From Collinsella sp. An7 (GTDB lineage Bacteria; Actinomycetota; Coriobacteriia; Coriobacteriales; Coriobacteriaceae), in the NCBI RefSeq assembly GCF_002159335.1, contig NZ_NFHP01000002.1:62001-126000 (forward strand): DNA of 64,000 nt. The letters run 5' to 3'. Both the position numbers and the translations under genes were made by a program. The notes below the pieces were generated by a model. It did no database searches and was not told where the DNA came from. It saw only the letters and a list, made by a program, of their open reading frames with translations. Of the stretch, positions 8,246 to 49,814 are shown piece by piece. Position 1 is the first letter of the stretch; each line of letters opens with the position of its first letter.

Positions 8246-9030
8246 ACGCCCTCCTCTCCGGATGCGGCAGCCGTATCCTTGGCCGCCGTGCCGGAATCCT
8301 CCGCCGCGGCGAGCGCCTCGGCAACCGAGAAGACTCCCTCGTAGATCGCCCGGCCCGTGATGGCGCCCTCGATCGCGTCCGACCCCGCCACCGCAAGCGC
8401 GCGGATGTCGGCGAGCGACGAAATGCCGCCCGACGCCACCACGGGAAAGCCCGCGAGCTCGGCCACGCGGCGGTAGGCCGCAACGTCGATGCCCGTCTGC
8501 ATGCCGTCGCGGGCGATGTCGGTGTAGACGAGGTGCCGAAAGCCCAGACTCGTGAGCTCGCCGACCACATCGTCGAGCGTGCGAGCCACGTCGTCGCGCC
8601 ACCCGTTGACCTTGACCATGCCGTCGCGGGCGGCAACGTCGGCAACCAGAAGATTGCCAAAGCCGCGCGCGGCCACCTCGGCAAACCCCGGCTCGGTAAC
8701 GAGCACCGTGCCAAGCGCAATGCGGCGGCAGCCGTAGCCCGCAAGCTCGTCGATTCGCGCGAGCGAGCGCACGCCGCCGCCCACGTCGACCGAGAGGCCC
8801 TCGACCTGGCAGATTGCCCGGATCGCAGCGGCGTTGGCCGCGCAGGCGTCGTCATCCTCCTCGAGCGCGGCCGAAAGGTCGACCACATGCACCCAAGAAG
8901 CACCCTGCTCGGCAAAGGAGCGGGCAACGGCCACTGGGTCGTCGGAGTAGACCTTCATGCGCGCGCGGTCGCCGCGCTCCAGGCGCACGACCTTGCCGGC
9001 AATGAGGTCGATAGCAGGGAATACGATCAT
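8239..9030 (-). CDS. hisA: Phosphoribosylformimino-5-aminoimidazole carboxamide ribotide isomerase
   Basis: 263 residues. It isomerises ProFAR to PRFAR, the substrate of His[22 protein letters not shown] contains the catalytic Asp8; the second is in [26 protein letters not shown] and [13 protein letters not shown] are the two phosphate loops. The C-terminus carries a short Ala/Glu-rich tail of about 20 residues beyond the usual end. The start overlaps the hisH stop (ATGA) and its own stop overlaps hisF, so hisH, hisA and hisF are translationally coupled. Confidence 0.95.
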
Positions 9031-9986
9031 GCGCGCACCTCCCCGGGAGCCGCCGAGCCCGACGCTCCGCATACGGCGACCGGCGCCGCATCTGCCGCCG
9101 CCTCGATCTTGGCCTGCGCCGCGGCGAGCGCATCCTGGTCGACATCGTCTGCACCCGCCCGTGCGCGCACCGTGCGCACGAAGTTCCGCAGGATGTCGAG
9201 GCCACGCCCGGAGCTCTTCTCGGGGTGGAACTGGCAGCCGAACACGTTGCCGCACGCCACGATGCTCGCAAAGCTCCGTGTGTAGTGCGTCCGCGCCGCC
9301 ACGACGGCAGGGTCCACGTCGTCGTCGAGCGCGTAGGAGTGGGTGAAGTACATGTTCGCCCCCTCGGGGAATCCCTCGATGAGGGGGCACGACGCGCCGA
9401 CGGCGGTGGGATGCACCTGGTCCCAGCCCACATGCGGCACCTTGAGGCGGCTCCCGTCGAGGCGCACGCAGCTGCCCTTGAGGATACCAAGGCCGCGCAC
9501 CCAGCGCTTGCCCTCGGCCTCGAAGACCGTACCCGGAGTCAGACCGGAGCCGTACGCATCGGCGAGCTCAGCCTCTGGCACGCACGGCGCATCCGCCGGC
9601 ACGCCCTCGTCGCCCCGCTCAAAGAGCAATTGCTGGCCAAGACAAATCCCTAAGAAGGGCACCCCGACGGCAATTGCGTCGGCCACCGCTGCCGCCTCGC
9701 CGCTCTGGGCCATGAAGTCGATGGCGTCGTAGAACGAGCCCACGCCCGGCAGCACCACACCCGCAGCTCCGCGGATAGCGTCCACGTCGTCCGAACTCGA
9801 CACCTCGACGGCGCCCGCATGGGAGAGCCCCTGGATCACGCTCGAGAGGTTGCCCTTGTGATAATCCACGACCACGATCGGTGCGCGCCAGGCCCGCCAC
9901 GCAGCTGCCTCGGCATCGCTCAGGTTAACGACCGGCACCGTGCACGAAATCGTCGCAGTGGCATCTGCCACGTTGCTTGCCGTCAT
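9027..9986 (-). CDS. hisH: Imidazole glycerol phosphate synthase, glutaminase subunit (enlarged)
   Basis: 319 residues against about 200 for ordinary HisH. The class I glutamine amidotransferase triad is intact: Cys115 in GICLGQQL, His254 and Glu256 in CQFHPEKSS; the oxyanion loop PGVGSFYDA is also present. Extra material sits in three places: about 36 residues before IVVVDYHKGN, about 35 between ERGDEG and LGILKGSC, and an Ala/Asp-rich tail of about 45. The start at 9986 is supported by ggggg just upstream; a still longer frame to 10058 runs into a dispersed repeat and is not preferred. It works with HisF. Confidence 0.92.
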   Translation of the reverse strand: MTASNVADATATISCTVPVVNLSDAEAAAWRAWRAPIVVVDYHKGNLSSVIQGLSHAGAVEVSSSDDVDAIRGAAGVVLPGVGSFYDAIDFMAQSGEAAAVADAIAVGVPFLGICLGQQLLFERGDEGVPADAPCVPEAELADAYGSGLTPGTVFEAEGKRWVRGLGILKGSCVRLDGSRLKVPHVGWDQVHPTAVGASCPLIEGFPEGANMYFTHSYALDDDVDPAVVAARTHYTRSFASIVACGNVFGCQFHPEKSSGRGLDILRNFVRTVRARAGADDVDQDALAAAQAKIEAAADAAPVAVCGASGSAAPGEVRA

Positions 9987-10036: not shown

Positions 10037-10076
10037 GAAAATGGTGCAAACGGAACACGTCCCCAAACGACCCATT
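10037..10076. repeat. Single copy of a dispersed repeat (half of the 22531 palindrome)
   Basis: The stretch from aaaatggtgcaaacgg to gacccattt matches one arm of the 73-bp palindrome at 22531-22603 and the copy at 40393-40430. It lies in the 126-bp gap between hisH and hisB and carries no gene. Confidence 0.75.
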
Positions 10077-10112: not shown

Positions 10113-10826
10113 CTAGAGGGCGCCCTTGGTGGAAGGCACACCCTCCACCCGCGGGTCCAGCTCGCAGGCAAAGCGCATCGCCCGGCCGACCGCCTTAAAC
10201 GCCGCCTCGATGATGTGATGCGAGTTGCCGCCGGCGAGCTCGCGCACGTGCAGAGTCACCCCCGCGTCGCGCGCAAAGGCATAGAAGAACTCCACCGCAA
10301 GCTCAGTGTCAAAATCCCCCACGCGCTCGGTGGGCAGCGGCAGCTCGCAGTACGCCTGACCGCGGCCCGAGATGTCCACGGCGGCCATCACGAGCGTCTC
10401 GTCCATGGGGATGGCCACGTTGGCAAAGCGCGTGATGCCCGCCTTGGCACCGAGCGCCTGGGCAAACGTCTGGCCGAGCACGATGCCCGTGTCCTCAACG
10501 GTATGGTGCGCATCGACCTCGGTATCGCCCGTCGCGTCGATCTTGAGGTCAAAGAGCCCGTGCCGCCCAAAGGCGTTCATCATGTGATCGAAGAACGGCA
10601 CGCCCGTCTTGATGTCGCAGGTACCCGAGCCGTCGAGCCCGAGCGTGATGGAGATGTCCGTCTCGCCGGTGGTGCGGCGCACACTCGCGGTGCGCGGCGC
10701 GTCGGCCGTGAGACCCGACCCCTTAAAGAGCGAGGTCAGGCCCGAGCTCTGGCGCGCATCCACCTCCGAGACGGTTGCGGCCGAGGTCTCGGCGAGGGTC
10801 TTAGGCTGCTTACGGTAAACAGTCAT
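10113..10826 (-). CDS. hisB: Imidazoleglycerol-phosphate dehydratase
   Basis: 237 residues. Single-function dehydratase (no phosphatase domain). The manganese-binding HHTVED occurs at 107-112 and a second His pair in GNSHHIIEAAFKA near 206. The first 45 residues are an extension relative to the typical 195-residue enzyme, but RRTTGETDI shows where the conserved domain begins. The start overlaps the hisC stop (ATGA). Confidence 0.95.
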   Translation of the reverse strand: MTVYRKQPKTLAETSAATVSEVDARQSSGLTSLFKGSGLTADAPRTASVRRTTGETDISITLGLDGSGTCDIKTGVPFFDHMMNAFGRHGLFDLKIDATGDTEVDAHHTVEDTGIVLGQTFAQALGAKAGITRFANVAIPMDETLVMAAVDISGRGQAYCELPLPTERVGDFDTELAVEFFYAFARDAGVTLHVRELAGGNSHHIIEAAFKAVGRAMRFACELDPRVEGVPSTKGAL

Positions 10827-19556: not shown

Positions 19557-22364
19557 TCACCCTGTGTTCTGGAGCCCCGCCGACACGCCGGTCACGGTCG
19601 AGAGGATGAGCGCCAGGTACTCGGCCTTGGCCTCGGCCGCAAGCTCGTCTTGGTTCTCACGCACCTGGCGAAGCGCGCGCACCTGCGCGAGCGACAACGC
19701 GTCCACATAGGGATTGCGCACGCGGACGGCGCGGCCGAGCACGCGACGGTGCTCGAGCGGCCACTCGTCGCCCACAATCTTGAGCACCCACGAACGCGTG
19801 AGCTGCATCTCGCTGTAGACCGTCTCGGCAAGGTCGCGCCGGTCTCCGAGCGCCAGGTACATCTTGGCGATACGGCCGTCGGTCTTGGCGATCGACATCT
19901 CGATGTTGTCGATGAACGTCGCAAAGAGCGGCCACTCCGTATAGGCGCGGCGCAAAAGCTCGAGGTCGCCGAGCGCCTCGCACGCAGACCCGAGGCCGTA
20001 CCAGGCGGCGAGGTTGATGCGCGCCTGGCTCCACGAGAACACCCACGGGATGGTGCGCAGGTCGTCGAGTGACTGCGCGCCGAGACCGCGCTTGGCGGGG
20101 CGGCTGCCGATGGGCAGCAGGCCCACCTCGGTGAGCGGCGTTACCGTCGAGAACCACGGCGCAAAGTCGTCGGTGTGCAGCAGCTTGAGGAACGCCTCGT
20201 GCGACGCGTCCGAGAGCCGGCCCGCCATCTCGGCGTAGCGCTCGGTGGTCTCGGTGTTGGTGCGCTCCACCGAAGGCGCCGAGTTGAGCAGCGTCGCTGC
20301 CGCCACGCTCTCGATGTGCCGCATGGCGAGCGCCTGGTTGCCGTAGCGCGCAAAGATAACCTCGCCCTGCTCCGTCACCTTAAAGAAGCAGTTGACCGAG
20401 CCCGCCGGCTGCGCGAGCACCGCGCGGTTGGCCGGGCCGCCGCCGCGGCCCACGGCGCCGCCGCGGCCGTGCATGAGCACGAGGTCGATATCGTGCTCCT
20501 CCGCCCAACGGGCGATCCGCTCCTGCGCAGAGTGCAGCGCAAGCGTGGCCGTGGTGGGGCCGGCATCTTTGGACGAGTCGGAGTAGCCGAGCATGACCTC
20601 CAGCTTGCGCCCGGTCTGGGCCAAGCGCTTCTGCACGGGCGGCAGGGCGATCATCTCGTCGAGCACGCCGATGCAGCCCTCGAGGTCCTCGAGCTGTTCA
20701 AACAGCGGGATGACGTCGAGCACCGGCACGTCCTCGGCATGCGCAAAGGCGAGGTTGGCGAGCTCGTACACGTCAGCAACGTGCTGGGCCGACTTGGTGA
20801 AGCTGATGATGTAGCGGCGGGCCATCTTTTGGCCGTAGCGCCGCTGGATCGACCCGATGGCGCGGAATGTGTCGAGCACCTCGCGAGTCATGGGGTCGAG
20901 CGGGCCGCGCTCGCCGTGCAAGCCGTGCTCGCGGATGTCGGCGAGCGCGCGGGTGTGCACCAGTGAGTGCTGACGAAACTCCATCTCGACCATGTGGAAG
21001 CCAAAGGTCTCGACCTGCCAGATGAGCGTCTGCACCGGGCCGTACGCGGCGCGCGTGGCGCCGGCAGCCGCGAGCGAGCGCTGCACCACGCGCAGGTCGG
21101 CAAGGAAGTCCTCGGCCGAGCGGTACATGGTGTCGGCGTTGCGGCGCACCGTAGCATCCAGCCGCGCGGCCATAACGAGCATCACGGCGCGGTGCGGCTC
21201 GGAAGCCGAGATCTCGCTCGCGCGGCGCGTGAGCACCTCACTCATCTCGACCTGGTGGTTCCAGAGGTTCATGAGCTCCTCGGACGGCTTGGTGTAGCGC
21301 GACTCGAGGGTGAGGTTTCGGCCCACGCGGCGACACTTGTCGGCGAGCTTCTGAACCATGTGGGTCGAGAACTTGGCCGCCACCTCACGGCTCACCTTGG
21401 CGGTGACGTTGGGGTTGCCGTCGCGATCGGACCCGATCCAGCTGCCGGGGTGGAAAAACGCCGGGCACACGGGCTCCACGCTGCCGGCGAGGTCGCCCAT
21501 CACCCAGTCGTCAAAGCGCCGGTAGACGAGCGGCACAACGTCAAAGAGCGTGTTGTCGAAGATGTCGATGATGGTGTCGGCCTCTTCCACGGGCGTGGGC
21601 TTTTTGATGGCCGTGGGGCTCGTGCGCACGAGGGCGTCAATCTCTTGCAGCATGTGGCGCTCGTTCTCCACGAGCGCGGAGCCGCCGAGGTGCGGGTGCT
21701 CGTCGAGCAGCTCGGAGATGCGGCGAATCTTGCCCTCGACCGCCTTGCGGCGCGCCTCGGTGGGATGCGCGGTAAAGACCGGGTGGAACTCGAGCTTGCG
21801 CAGCAGCGCGTTGGCGCGCTCGGGGCCGACCTCCTCGAGCAGCTGGTGGTAGGCCACGGTGAGCTCGTTGGAGATGTCGACGGCCGAATCGATGGAGACG
21901 GACCGCTCGCGTTCGCGCAGCTTCTCTACGCGGTAGTTCTCCTCGGAGAGGTTGGCGAGGTGGAAGAACGAGGTAAACGCACGGACCACCACCTGGGCGT
22001 GGTCGAGCGGCAGGGCGTCGATGAGCTCGACCGCATGGCGGAAGGCCGCGGCCCCCGGAGTGTCGGCGGTGGGAACGCCCTCGCCGTCGACGGGCTCGGA
22101 CGCGGCAGCGGAGCCGGGGTTGCCCTCGTTGGCGTGAATCACGCTGTTGAGCAGCTGGTCAAAGGCGTCACAGATGGCGGGATCGTACTCCTGGAGCACA
22201 CGGCGCTCAAGGCGCAGAAAGAGCGCCAGGTTGTCGCGCAGGCTCTGCGGAATATCGATCTCGGTGTAGGACTCGATGGCCGAGTCGGTGTCAGCTGCGC
22301 CGAGCCGGTGGGCCCCCGCCCACACGCACTCGTGGCCAACGGTCGAAGCGGATGATGCGGTCAC
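19557..22364 (-). CDS. ppc: Phosphoenolpyruvate carboxylase
   Basis: 935 residues, normal length. It fixes bicarbonate onto PEP to give oxaloacetate, an anaplerotic step leading to aspartate and succinate. Catalytic landmarks: FTAHPTEARRKAV with the essential His near residue 196, GSDRDGNPNVT, MLGYSDSSKDAG, and LMHGRGGAVGRGGGP. The C-terminal GLQNTG is the hallmark end of the family. GTG start at 22364 with ggagg five bases upstream. Monocistronic by appearance. Confidence 0.97.
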   Translation of the reverse strand: MTASSASTVGHECVWAGAHRLGAADTDSAIESYTEIDIPQSLRDNLALFLRLERRVLQEYDPAICDAFDQLLNSVIHANEGNPGSAAASEPVDGEGVPTADTPGAAAFRHAVELIDALPLDHAQVVVRAFTSFFHLANLSEENYRVEKLRERERSVSIDSAVDISNELTVAYHQLLEEVGPERANALLRKLEFHPVFTAHPTEARRKAVEGKIRRISELLDEHPHLGGSALVENERHMLQEIDALVRTSPTAIKKPTPVEEADTIIDIFDNTLFDVVPLVYRRFDDWVMGDLAGSVEPVCPAFFHPGSWIGSDRDGNPNVTAKVSREVAAKFSTHMVQKLADKCRRVGRNLTLESRYTKPSEELMNLWNHQVEMSEVLTRRASEISASEPHRAVMLVMAARLDATVRRNADTMYRSAEDFLADLRVVQRSLAAAGATRAAYGPVQTLIWQVETFGFHMVEMEFRQHSLVHTRALADIREHGLHGERGPLDPMTREVLDTFRAIGSIQRRYGQKMARRYIISFTKSAQHVADVYELANLAFAHAEDVPVLDVIPLFEQLEDLEGCIGVLDEMIALPPVQKRLAQTGRKLEVMLGYSDSSKDAGPTTATLALHSAQERIARWAEEHDIDLVLMHGRGGAVGRGGGPANRAVLAQPAGSVNCFFKVTEQGEVIFARYGNQALAMRHIESVAAATLLNSAPSVERTNTETTERYAEMAGRLSDASHEAFLKLLHTDDFAPWFSTVTPLTEVGLLPIGSRPAKRGLGAQSLDDLRTIPWVFSWSQARINLAAWYGLGSACEALGDLELLRRAYTEWPLFATFIDNIEMSIAKTDGRIAKMYLALGDRRDLAETVYSEMQLTRSWVLKIVGDEWPLEHRRVLGRAVRVRNPYVDALSLAQVRALRQVRENQDELAAEAKAEYLALILSTVTGVSAGLQNTG

Positions 22365-22530
22365 GCTGCCTCCCTACACGTGTGCGGTCAACGGCTTCTT
22401 ATTATAGGCACCCGGGCGGACACGAAATGAAGCCGTTACCAAAGCACCCCCGCCTTCGCAAGAAAAACTTTGCCGACGGTGGTCCCGCTTCGGTTGGCGG
22501 CGCGGGTGGCAGGTGACAGGGCCGGCCGCT

Positions 22531-22603
22531 GGGTCAGTTGGGGACGTGCTCCATTTGCACCATTTTCAAAATGGTGCAAATGGAGCACGTCCCCAACTGA
22601 CCC
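22531..22603. repeat. 73-bp perfect palindrome, fused inverted pair of a dispersed repeat
   Basis: Arms of 36 bp (22531-22566 and 22568-22603) match perfectly around a single central base. Each arm equals the single copies at 10037-10076 and 40393-40430 apart from a few changes. It starts 17 bp after the hisS stop on the minus strand, so it can form a very long hairpin in the hisS transcript. No T-run follows. The remainder of 22365-22619 shows nothing else. Confidence 0.85.
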
Positions 22604-22619
22604 ATTGATCGGCGTTGCC

Positions 22620-23942
22620 CTAGCACCCGGCCAGCTCGGCCTCCACCTCGGCGGCAACCTCCGCGCGCGCCACGAGGCGCTCCTCGTGCGTGGCCATGTT
22701 GCGCAGGCGCACCTGGCCGGCCGCGAGCTCATCGCCGCCCACGACCACCATGAGCGCCGCGCCGAGCTTGTCGGCCTGCTTAAACTGGCTCTTGAGCGAG
22801 CGGCCCTGGTAGTTGGCCTCGGTCACAAGGCCCGTGGCACGCAGCTCCCGGCAGATGCCGAAGACTTCGCTGCGCAGCTCGTCGCCCGCGTTGGCCACGT
22901 ACACGCAGCCCGCCGGCTCGTCGCCGAGCTCCACGCCCTGCGCCTCGAGCGCCAAGAGCACGCGTTCAAAGCCCACGGCAAAACCCACGCCCGGGGTCGG
23001 TTTGCCGCCCTCGAGCTCCACGAGCCCGTCGTAGCGCCCGCCGCCGCCGATGGAGCCCACGCCGGCGCCCGGCGCCTCGACCTCAAACACCGTGCGGGTG
23101 TAGTAATCGAGTCCGCGCACGAGCGTCGGGTCCTCCACGTACTCGATGCCCGCGGCGTCCAGATAGCGCTTGACCTGCTCGTAGTGCTCGCGGCAATCGT
23201 CGCAGAGACTCTCGCGCATGAGCGGAGCGGCCTTCATAACCTCGCGGCAGTGCCCGTTCTTGCAGTCGAAGGCACGGAGCGGGTTGAGCTCGGCGCGCTC
23301 GCGGCACTCGTCACACATCTCGTCGGCGTGGTCGAGGATGAACGAGCGCACCTGCTCGCGATAGGCCGGGCGGCACGCCGGATCGCCCATGGAGTTAATG
23401 AGCAGGCGCAGCTTGGAGAGGTCAAACCCAAGGCGACGGTAGAAGTCCATGAGCATGATGATGCACTCGGCGTCGGCCGCAGGGTCGGGCGCGCCCAGCC
23501 ACTCGATGCCCACCTGGTGGAACTGGCGCAGGCGTCCCTTCTGCGGGCGCTCGCCGCGAAACATCGCCTCGGCGTACCAGGCCTTAAAAGGCGTGCCGCC
23601 CTGGGGCACGAGGTTGTTCTCCACCACCGAGCGCACCACGCCCGCAGTGCCCTCGGGACGCAGGGCCAGGCGCTGCTTGGGCTTGAGGCGCGCGTCGGCG
23701 CCCTCCTCGAGCACGCGGGCAAAGTTGGCGCCCGAGAACACGCGGAACATCTCCTTGCGCACCACGTCGGTGGACTGGCCGATGCCGTGCACAAAGACGT
23801 CGAGCTGCTCGATCGCTGGGGTCTCCATGGGGGCGAACCCGTAGGGACCAAACGTCTCGGCCGCCACCTGCTGCATCTTTTGCCACGCGCGCATCTCGCG
23901 CCCGATGAGGTCCCTCGTGCCTTCGGCCTTCTGTGCCTGCAT
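22620..23942 (-). CDS. hisS: Histidine--tRNA ligase
   Basis: 440 residues, class II synthetase. Motifs: KAEGTRDLIGREMRAWQ, RPEGTAGVVRSVVEN, GERPQKGRLRQFHQVGIE, and the histidine-specific LVRGLDYYTRTVFE, followed by SIGGGGRYDGL and GFAVGFERVLL. A cysteine-rich insertion (CDECRERAELNPLRAFDCKN and CDDC) is typical of one bacterial subgroup. The start is set at 23942 because ggagg then lies six bases upstream; the ATG at 23948 touches the Shine-Dalgarno directly. Ends next to the long palindrome. Confidence 0.96.
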   Translation of the reverse strand: MQAQKAEGTRDLIGREMRAWQKMQQVAAETFGPYGFAPMETPAIEQLDVFVHGIGQSTDVVRKEMFRVFSGANFARVLEEGADARLKPKQRLALRPEGTAGVVRSVVENNLVPQGGTPFKAWYAEAMFRGERPQKGRLRQFHQVGIEWLGAPDPAADAECIIMLMDFYRRLGFDLSKLRLLINSMGDPACRPAYREQVRSFILDHADEMCDECRERAELNPLRAFDCKNGHCREVMKAAPLMRESLCDDCREHYEQVKRYLDAAGIEYVEDPTLVRGLDYYTRTVFEVEAPGAGVGSIGGGGRYDGLVELEGGKPTPGVGFAVGFERVLLALEAQGVELGDEPAGCVYVANAGDELRSEVFGICRELRATGLVTEANYQGRSLKSQFKQADKLGAALMVVVGGDELAAGQVRLRNMATHEERLVARAEVAAEVEAELAGC

Positions 23943-24075
23943 GCGCATCCTCCGTTATCGTTGCCGCGCCCGGGGCGCCACCTGCATTCGTTATCGACGC
24001 CCCATTATACGAGAAGCCGCGACGCGGGATGGAAGTGCGACAATAGGTTCGCAATCAGACACCATGGAGGTACCC

Positions 24076-40196: not shown

Positions 40197-40333
40197 CGTT
40201 ACGCGCTCTCCTTACTCTTGCGGCGCCGCTTGCGGCGCGCGCCGAACTAACACCCTGCCTGCAAGATACCCCGCCGCGCCCTGCGCCACAGCGGGAATTT
40301 GGGGACGAGCCCGTTTTTGCCACCCGACGACCC

Positions 40334-40430
40334 TGTGACAATGGGGACAGGTTCGTTTGCCACGTGACAAAATAACCTGTCCCCCTTGTCACGAAATGGG
40401 TCAAACGGAACACGTCCCCAACTGACCCAT
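40334..40430. repeat. Two repeat elements between agaA and agaS
   Basis: First, a 19-bp inverted repeat with one mismatch, gtgacaatggggacaggtt (40334-40352) against 40374-40392. Directly after it, 40393-40430 is a single copy of the family seen at 10037 and 22531, here bounded by an inverted atgggtc/gacccat. No gene in 40197-40495. Confidence 0.75.
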
Positions 40431-40495
40431 CAACACGTGCGGCCACCGACGATTGAGGGACAAGATCGGGTGCCACGGGAGGCCGCTCAGGTGCG

Positions 40496-48887: not shown

Positions 48888-49814
48888 GGTATGAGCCCCT
48901 CTCATGGATTCGAACCGATGAGGTCGCGGAGCTAGGCAAAGCGCATGAGCGTCTTTGCCAGCGCAGCGCGCGAGGCGGGAAGCGCCGAAGCGACCCTGCA
49001 CAGCCACGCGCGGCACCGTACGGCGCAGTGCGCCGAAGGGTGCATTCGCGGGTTCACGGCTGGGCCTTTTGCCAAGGCGCTCCGTGCGTTTCTCGCGGCA
49101 ATGAACCCGCAGATGCGCTACAGGGCGGTTTCCCCGCGAGCGGGCGCGTTGCGCGCGAAAACGCACGCCCCCTACCTGCGCTCCCCTCACGGGTTCATTT
49201 GCGGGTTCATCGCCGGGTTCACTGACGGGCCTTTTGCACGGCGCGGTCGGCCGGGGCGCACTTGATCGAGACGCGGCCGGCGGCACGCAGGCAAACGGCC
49301 GACGCGCGCCCGGGGATCCACACGACGCCCCGGGGAAGGGCCGGCTTCTCACCTCCACGAGAGCTCTGAACGGGTCAGCTGGGGGCGTTTTCGCTCTAAC
49401 CCATTTTTAGGCTCTCGCGCCCCGGACAGCCGCGGCGGGCGCCTACGGCCTCAGGCCGCGCCGGGGCAGCGCCGCTGCGCCCTCCCCGCCTTCGAACCCG
49501 ATGCCCCGCTGTTCGCCTTCTTCACCTTCGGGCCCATCCACCCAACCGTGCGTCCGGCCCGGCGCGTCCGCGTCGCGCCCTCCGCGCCATGCACCCGCCT
49601 ATCGCTGCGTCCGATTCCTTCTAGCAGAATGAATCGGTCAAAAACGGAGCCCATTCTGTCCGATTCGTTCTAATAGAACGAACGAGACAGAAGAGATCAG
49701 ACATGACGGGGTCAACAGGCATGACGGGGTCAAGATAGAAGGAGTCGGACGTAGCGGGGACCAGGCACAAGGGATCACGCAGGGCGAAGCGCCCCGAAAC
49801 GCTATGACCAGCGC
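48888..49814. other. Long gene-free, repeat-bearing region
   Basis: About 930 bp between the tRNA-Thr terminator and argD. At 48905-48927 the minus strand reads ctcatcggttcgaatcc, similar to the T-arm of the tRNA just before but inverted. Several cgggttca repeats occur at 49040-49220. Paired palindromes lie at 49609-49688 and catgacggggtcaa is repeated at 49702-49715 and 49720-49733. Open frames here are Arg/Pro-rich and match no family, so I call none of them genes. Confidence 0.55.
49609..49688. repeat. Paired 31-bp palindromes, family copy 2
   Basis: Palindromes at 49609-49639 and 49658-49688, centres 49 bp apart, exactly as at 19152-19231. Each reads about gtccgattc-n-ttcta-nn-agaa-n-gaatcggac; the spacer carries gagcccat here and gggcccga there. 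Confidence 0.7.

Follow-up and report, generated by a model that had tools for sequence, protein, structure and literature searches.

A perfect palindrome downstream of hisS in Collinsella sp. An7 belongs to a dispersed family of REPIN-like repeats that has probably lost its RAYT transposase

Results

The palindrome between hisS and ppc

The DNA analysed was a stretch of 64,000 nucleotides of Collinsella sp. An7 (the window), in which hisS (22620..23948, minus strand; NCBIfam TIGR00442) is followed in the same direction by ppc, for PEP carboxylase (19557..22364, minus strand; start uncertain, at 22364 or 22325), identified with NCBIfam NF000584 at 672.8 bits, under the curated cut-off of 815. 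The 3' UTR of hisS holds, 15 nt after the stop codon, a perfect palindrome of 75 bp (22530..22604, no strand), with two 37-bp arms and one central base between them. According to the palindrome scan and the unit catalogue described below, the left arm (22530..22566, plus strand; TGGGTCAGTTGGGGACGTGCTCC..TGCACCATTTT) is one repeat unit and the right arm (22568..22604, minus strand) is the same unit inverted, with TGGGTCA facing TGCACCA within each arm. The perfect arms and single central base noted in the preliminary description of this DNA were thus retained, whereas its extent (36-bp arms, 22531-22603) was too short, and the hairpin that it placed in the 3' end of hisS lies in the untranslated region and not inside the gene.

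This was the sole perfect palindrome in the window with arms of at least 15 bp and a spacer of up to 11, the runner-up having an arm of 14 bp. As hisS-sense RNA it was predicted to fold at -105.8 kcal/mol (141 nt), compared with -52.5 +/- 4.1 in 200 shuffles (z = -13). Rfam at lax thresholds yielded 10 matches, mostly to microRNA-like hairpin models and none up to the gathering score, on which ground a known structured RNA was rejected; an intrinsic terminator was likewise rejected, since the scan of positions 22300-22700 found none and no T run lies behind the stem. No promoter was detected by scan at the palindrome. A TATAAT box before ppc (22401..22406, minus strand; GTGCCTATAAT) is kept in the relatives according to the alignment, and a full sigma-70 match was not obtained for it.

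The element was absent from the hisS-ppc gap of the four close relatives that were aligned, and the focal core was found in the hisS gap of 0/80 hisS loci, from relatives in Collinsella, Enorma and Coprousia. In an uncultured Collinsella (L154), some 50-90 bases beyond hisS, there is a different palindrome (CGCTTTTGGTCGACATGTGTCGACCAAAAGCG, ending in GTCCCCAATTGG), which carries a GTCCCCAA end; the hisS 3' gap seems to have been hit by insertion twice, in the focal genome and in L154.

Two single units of the same family, reported as single arms in the preliminary description, were found in the window between minus-strand genes: one (10040..10074, minus strand) in the gap between the genes at 9027-9938 and 10113-10826, and the other (40395..40429, minus strand) in the gap 40197-40495. 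The latter adjoins a unit of a sister family (40363..40393, minus strand; CGTGACAAGGGGGACAGGTTATTTTGTCACG), for which an inverted partner (40335..40363, plus strand; GTGACAATGGGGACAGGTTCGTTTGCCAC) was read by eye, so that positions 40335-40429 form a mosaic of three consecutive units from two families, a GGGGACAGG doublet beside a GGGGACGTG single. A core search also detected a probable decayed unit (49371..49408, plus strand; CGGGTCAGCTGGGGGCGTTTTCGCTCTAACCCATTTTT, corresponding to C11:111371), which sits in a long gap without confident genes. Among 34 GGGGAC units in the window, a scan for stem-loops picked out 4, two of these being members of the family or its sisters.

Copies and unit of the family

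The 18-base core, with up to two mismatches, had 90 copies (43 forward and 47 reverse) in the focal genome (G000; a 2.37 Mb draft in 18 contigs, 99.7% complete), and its reversed control had 0; BLAST of the 73-bp query against this genome returned 83 matches, both strands counted. With up to four substitutions, 100 core matches were obtained, which made up 21 inverted pairs and 58 singles; this catalogue comprises 209 kb of fetched stretches of the focal genome and is a lower bound, at least one more doublet-like copy (C13:243681) and one more unit (C16:116519) being present. The inverted doublets, at least 21 and of 63-97 bp, are built from the unit TGGGTCA[G/T]TTGGGGACGTGTTCC..TGACCCATTTT, whose first part is followed by a variable triplet, TGACCCA and a T run. 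In a doublet the units join tail to tail, while a single unit makes an imperfect hairpin by pairing of TGGGTCA with TGACCCA. Across the order, a 15-base core was found in 14/297 genomes, 13 of them in the same family, Coriobacteriaceae.

Pairing of the arms

Perfect arms over 32 nt were observed in 7/21 doublets, the focal one included. Mismatches between the two arms of a doublet summed to 60, compared with a mean of 132 when the right arms were re-dealt (0/10000 as low), and 94.3% of the arm-pair cells in the 21 doublets were standard pairs. Changes on both sides occurred in 16/36 helix pairs, and the 36-pair helix had 57 doubly changed cells, compared with 17.8 +/- 3.1 in shuffles (0/500 as high) and with 4 to 11 when the partner was slid by 1-3 columns. 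At the level of sequence, this shows that the arms stayed complementary while the elements diverged. Local correction of one arm by the other (gene conversion) was rejected as the cause of the perfect arms: of 54 symmetric arm changes only 1 was private to one doublet, so inheritance from doublets that had already diverged suffices to explain them. One-armed changes also numbered 54.

The unit's own 7-bp stem was intact in 32/58 singles compared with 9/42 doublet arms; doublets keep the long hairpin and singles keep the short one. Mean identity was 0.851 in singles and 0.801 in doublets, a difference opposite to that sought in a singlet-decay test in the style of Bertels, and not significant when only left arms were used (369/3000 permutations). 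The weak single matches C11:110453 and C11:111371 were left out of this analysis, as well as of those of stop distance and orientation.

Doublets as the copied form, and empty sites

Several doublets at separate loci have an asymmetric centre in common: TTTTCAAAAAT in three (C1:142333, C1:165098 and C1:167031), TTTTGCGGCAATG in C11:377377 and C16:21449, TTTTGGATGG in C13:85241 and C13:233285, and TTTTTGAAAATGG in C14:91405 and C16:83576. Since the folding back of one unit would not give shared asymmetric centres, the doublet was copied as a doublet. For the 77-bp element at C16:21449 the flanks were matched in the congeners, and by match coordinates the site was empty in 8/8 of them, the flank matches lying 4, 4 and 2 bp apart in G006, G003 and G007, respectively. 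Close alignment, which covers G006 and G007 (G003 being judged by match coordinates alone), revealed the insertion of the palindrome plus 2-3 bp with no target duplication. Taken together, the shared asymmetric centres and a clean empty site without target duplication indicate that the doublet moves as a unit. At C1:165098, a second site compared in this way, the two flanks matched at different places in the congeners.

RAYT transposases in the family

The focal genome has one Y1_Tnp gene (G000:C12), coding for a RAYT with a C-terminal helix-turn-helix (PF01797; HTH_7, 2e-6; HTH_23, 5.6e-5) that scored 75.6 bits with the NCBIfam model REP_Tyr_transpos (cut-off 80), and whose protein has relatives in 53/65 genomes of the family. 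It is flanked by inverted ends of its own (GTCAATTTGGGGACGGGTACAAATTGTG), unlike the focal unit, and this end type (GGGGACGGGTAC) has only 6 copies genome-wide with up to three mismatches.

In a tree of 48/49 RAYT loci, taken from about half of the matches listed (L133 was left out for length), the RAYTs of G011, G053, G054, G059 and G064 formed one clade (support 100/97), with the resident RAYT outside it. All five clade members (5/5) are flanked by GGGGACGTGTTC units, those of G064 having a TGGGTCA stem identical to that of the focal family, whereas RAYTs outside the clade have other cores and stems (GGGGACGGGTTC, GGGGACGGGGTC, GGGGACGGGTAC); two of the latter, L110 (G062) and L125 (G048), also have a GTGTTCC unit (GGGGACGTGTTCC) nearby. 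The G064 protein contains PF01797 with weak HTH matches, and matched the TnpArep structure 4er8 of the PDB with an E value of 0.0036. Among the 65 genomes of the family, a clade RAYT was present in 5/9 genomes with at least 15 core copies and in 0/56 of the others (Fisher, 1.5e-5). The core-rich genomes without one are G048, G060 and G061, which are 76-87% complete, and the near-complete G000; the search of this 99.7% complete draft found no clade RAYT, although the gene may sit in an assembly gap between its 18 contigs.

The 3' end of the clade RAYT is itself an in-frame repeat unit, with the protein tail GVSWGRVPSDP in G064 (L257:2749-2803) and GVGWGRVPSDP in G011 (L119), so that part of the coding sequence of the transposase doubles as a copy of the presumed target. 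Genes or gene fragments for IS200-type transposases, some of them broken, were observed at L087, L088, L092 and L094 of the congeners G002 and G003, in a setting unlike that of the RAYTs, and no GGGGACG ends were seen at these four loci.

The gpmI-secG locus

In G064, the gap between gpmI and secG contains, in order, a terminator, doublet A, the RAYT, a gene for a HAD-type phosphatase and doublet B, whereas the same gap of the focal genome contains a single doublet. The left side of the focal gap aligns to the left flank of doublet A, with an identical terminator stem, and its right side to the right flank of doublet B, the secG leader; tblastn of the focal gap gave no RAYT remnant beyond unit matches and matches at chance level. 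On the gpmI 3' side the focal genome has an additional unit-like stretch (L253:1749-1790; GACTCATTTTGGGACGGGGTAATTTT) between gpmI and the terminator, which G064 does not have. In five congeners (G001, G002, G003, G006 and G007) gpmI is immediately followed by a RAYT that belongs to another clade and then, as far as the stretch shows, by secG; G004 has a doublet without RAYT and G005 has neither.

The simplest reading of these alignments is that the RAYT cassette was probably lost from the focal genome by recombination between doublets A and B. As G064 and the focal genome belong to different genera, the scar could also mean that the cassette reached the line leading to G064 at a doublet already in place.

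Placement relative to genes

Based on gene positions from a simple codon-usage gene finder, and not from annotation, the 79 elements divide into 62 in tandem gaps, 12 in convergent gaps, 2 in divergent gaps, 2 that fall within predicted genes and 1 at an edge. Fourteen of the 21 doublets lie within 30 bp after a stop codon, compared with 7.0 expected if doublets were placed uniformly within those gaps (p = 5e-5 by simulation). Among single units in tandem gaps, 31/45 were sense to the flanking genes and 14 opposite (p = 0.016, with neighbouring units counted separately); these sense-biased singles may act as RNA hairpins or may reflect strand-biased insertion.

Discussion

The palindrome downstream of hisS is probably a non-autonomous mobile hairpin, REPIN-like, with a GGGGACG core as at the ends of the TIRYT/TnpAREP 2.1 RAYTs of Coriobacteriaceae, and a member of a population orphaned of its transposase; this reading draws on sequence comparison. 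The preliminary description, which had taken the palindrome for a dispersed repeat, extragenic and of REP/RAYT type, is confirmed in this by the copy count (90 core copies and 0 in the control), by the RAYT clade that is flanked by the focal core in relatives and missing from the focal genome, and by the comparison of occupied with empty sites, C16:21449 being cleanly empty in congeners and the hisS gap being without the element in relatives. The alternative it envisaged, of only three copies with positions fixed across distant relatives, does not agree with about 90 copies and an empty hisS gap. Its suggestion that perfect arms imply recent formation or active maintenance found no support as regards recent formation: with 7/21 doublets perfect and the cognate transposase missing, the focal arms need not be recent, and the arms covary.

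With the IS200/IS605 and TnpAREP transposases as the model, a former RAYT of the clade would have recognised the single-stranded form of the hairpin, made its cut close to the base and inserted copies where single strands were exposed; the insertions tolerated would have been mainly those directly downstream of stop codons. Loss of the RAYT cassette, probably through recombination of the doublets on either side of it, would then have left about 90 units as orphans, which would now only be decaying. The hisS doublet would be a passenger in the 3' UTR, and its RNA, if made, should form a stem of 37 bp, located 15 nt past the stop. An effect on the hisS mRNA, for instance on 3'-end stability, is plausible, and such a stem could mark the 3' end of the mRNA or protect it, a role that is not needed to explain the element.

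A local origin, in which one unit was duplicated in inverted orientation (fold-back), would make the palindrome the two fused copies that it was first taken for. Arms that are perfect and yet differ between elements, a centre at the unit's T run and singles that outnumber doublets would all suit such an origin, which is nevertheless very improbable: unrelated loci yielded at least four sets of doublets with an asymmetric centre in common, the precise empty site lacks both arms, and doublets occur at the RAYT locus of G064, in another genus, as well as at the corresponding locus of the focal genome, indicating that the doublet is the copied form. The mobile hairpin might, on the other hand, still be served in trans by the resident RAYT (G000:C12), in which case the family would be active and not orphaned. 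The TTGGGGACG core and the stem-loop layout are common to both end types, and REP classes whose RAYT switched ends (orthoswitch) have been described (Nunvar 2013, PMC3686654, in the part available); we consider continued activity unlikely, however, given that this enzyme falls outside the clade carrying the focal ends, that its own end type has only 6 matches and that the gpmI-secG gap of the focal genome is without RAYT.

The placement data bear on a different possibility, that selection retains the hairpins for a function at mRNA 3' ends, where they would process, stabilise or terminate the transcript of the preceding gene, mobility being secondary. The doublets within 30 bp of a stop (14/21, with 7.0 expected), the sense bias of the singles in tandem gaps (31 against 14, p = 0.016) and the very stable predicted fold are what it would lead one to expect; tolerance alone, however, would also leave insertions just after stops, and other REPs are reported in a like placement (Di Nocera 2013, PMC3733652, in the part available). 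As the hisS palindrome has no terminator-like signal and the hisS gap of the relatives has no element, selection of this kind has, in our judgement, a low probability as the main explanation.

Our preferred reading, the orphaned mobile hairpin, can be extended into a tentative scheme, to which we give less than even weight: subclass 2.1 RAYTs may drive true REPIN populations in Coriobacteriaceae, recognition resting on a constant GGGGACG loop and the outer stem being free to vary from one RAYT lineage to another, and this host may have shed its RAYT by recombination between the two REPINs beside it, the stranded singles surviving as sense mRNA 3'-end hairpins. The present family extends the range of REPIN-like mobile hairpins to gut actinobacteria of one family, and to a RAYT group said to have no such repeats. 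Its interest is heightened by its orphan state and by a probable former RAYT locus that can still be seen, G064 (RAYT at gpmI-secG) and G000 (none) forming a natural pair for the ageing of a repeat population after loss of the transposase. Co-evolution among loop, stem and enzyme can be tested with the five genomes that have a clade RAYT and the nine that are core-rich.

As regards known systems, compared here with the available portions of the papers cited, the best reading is that the palindrome works like a REPIN and is closest to the TIRs of Di Nocera 2013 (PMC3733652) and to TnpAREP subclass 2.1 (RAYT group 1; PMC6006769), which probably comprises the TIR/TIRYT elements. In TIR/TIRYT elements (TIRtrons; PMC3733652), as in the present family, a Y1 transposase gene is flanked by inverted repeats with a GGGGW.. 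motif (e.g. at L109, L116, L122 and L223 in the relatives), the enzyme has a C-terminal helix-turn-helix, and the repeats are dispersed, partly as dimers, without a GTAG tag. The focal repeats fit this kind of element apart from two motif positions: the TIR/TIRYT motif is GGGGWSAS, and the focal core, GGGGACGT/GGGGACGG, is not strictly so, sharing GGGGAC but having GT or GG at positions 7-8, with GGGGACAG in the sister family of the window. Unlike the TIR/TIRYT elements described there, the focal doublets are near-perfect palindromes and their outer stem varies between RAYT lineages. According to PMC6006769, REP-like sequences were not found in the vicinity of subclass 2.1 genes.

REPINs (Bertels and Rainey 2011, PMC3116915) and the focal doublets are both extragenic inverted REP pairs that form a hairpin with compensatory changes, are associated with a RAYT and are copied as a unit. 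REPINs, however, have a GTAG tag beside the stem, which the focal unit consensus does not have; in classical REPINs doublets predominate and singlets are more decayed, whereas here singles outnumber doublets (58 to 21) and show no greater decay (mean identity 0.851 against 0.801); and their cognate RAYT is in the same genome, whereas here it was found in G011, G053, G054, G059 and G064 and not in the focal genome. In this last respect the family resembles the orphan REP classes of Nunvar et al. 2013 (PMC3686654), abundant REPs without a cognate RAYT that is present in relatives, with the difference from the orphans described in the available part of that paper that the probable former locus is visible, as one doublet between the same flanking genes. 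The CGTC-tagged REPs (PMC3733652) are also short palindromes, mostly dimers, with the letters CGTC; there, according to the part available, CGTC is terminal, the loop has 4-5 nt and no transposase is known, whereas in the focal family CGTC lies inside the loop and copies flank RAYTs in relatives.

The words Coriobacter, Eggerthella, Olsenella, Atopobium and Slackia are absent from the main text of PMC3733652; limited literature searches on RAYT with Collinsella found nothing on the subject by title and abstract, nor was there a paper on such repeats in Coriobacteria among those listed. Since the GTAG tag and the doublet excess of REPINs are lacking, the TIR/TIRYT elements fit in all but two positions and the host group is not named in the main text of PMC3733652, the focal repeats form a new family within a kind of element that is already known.
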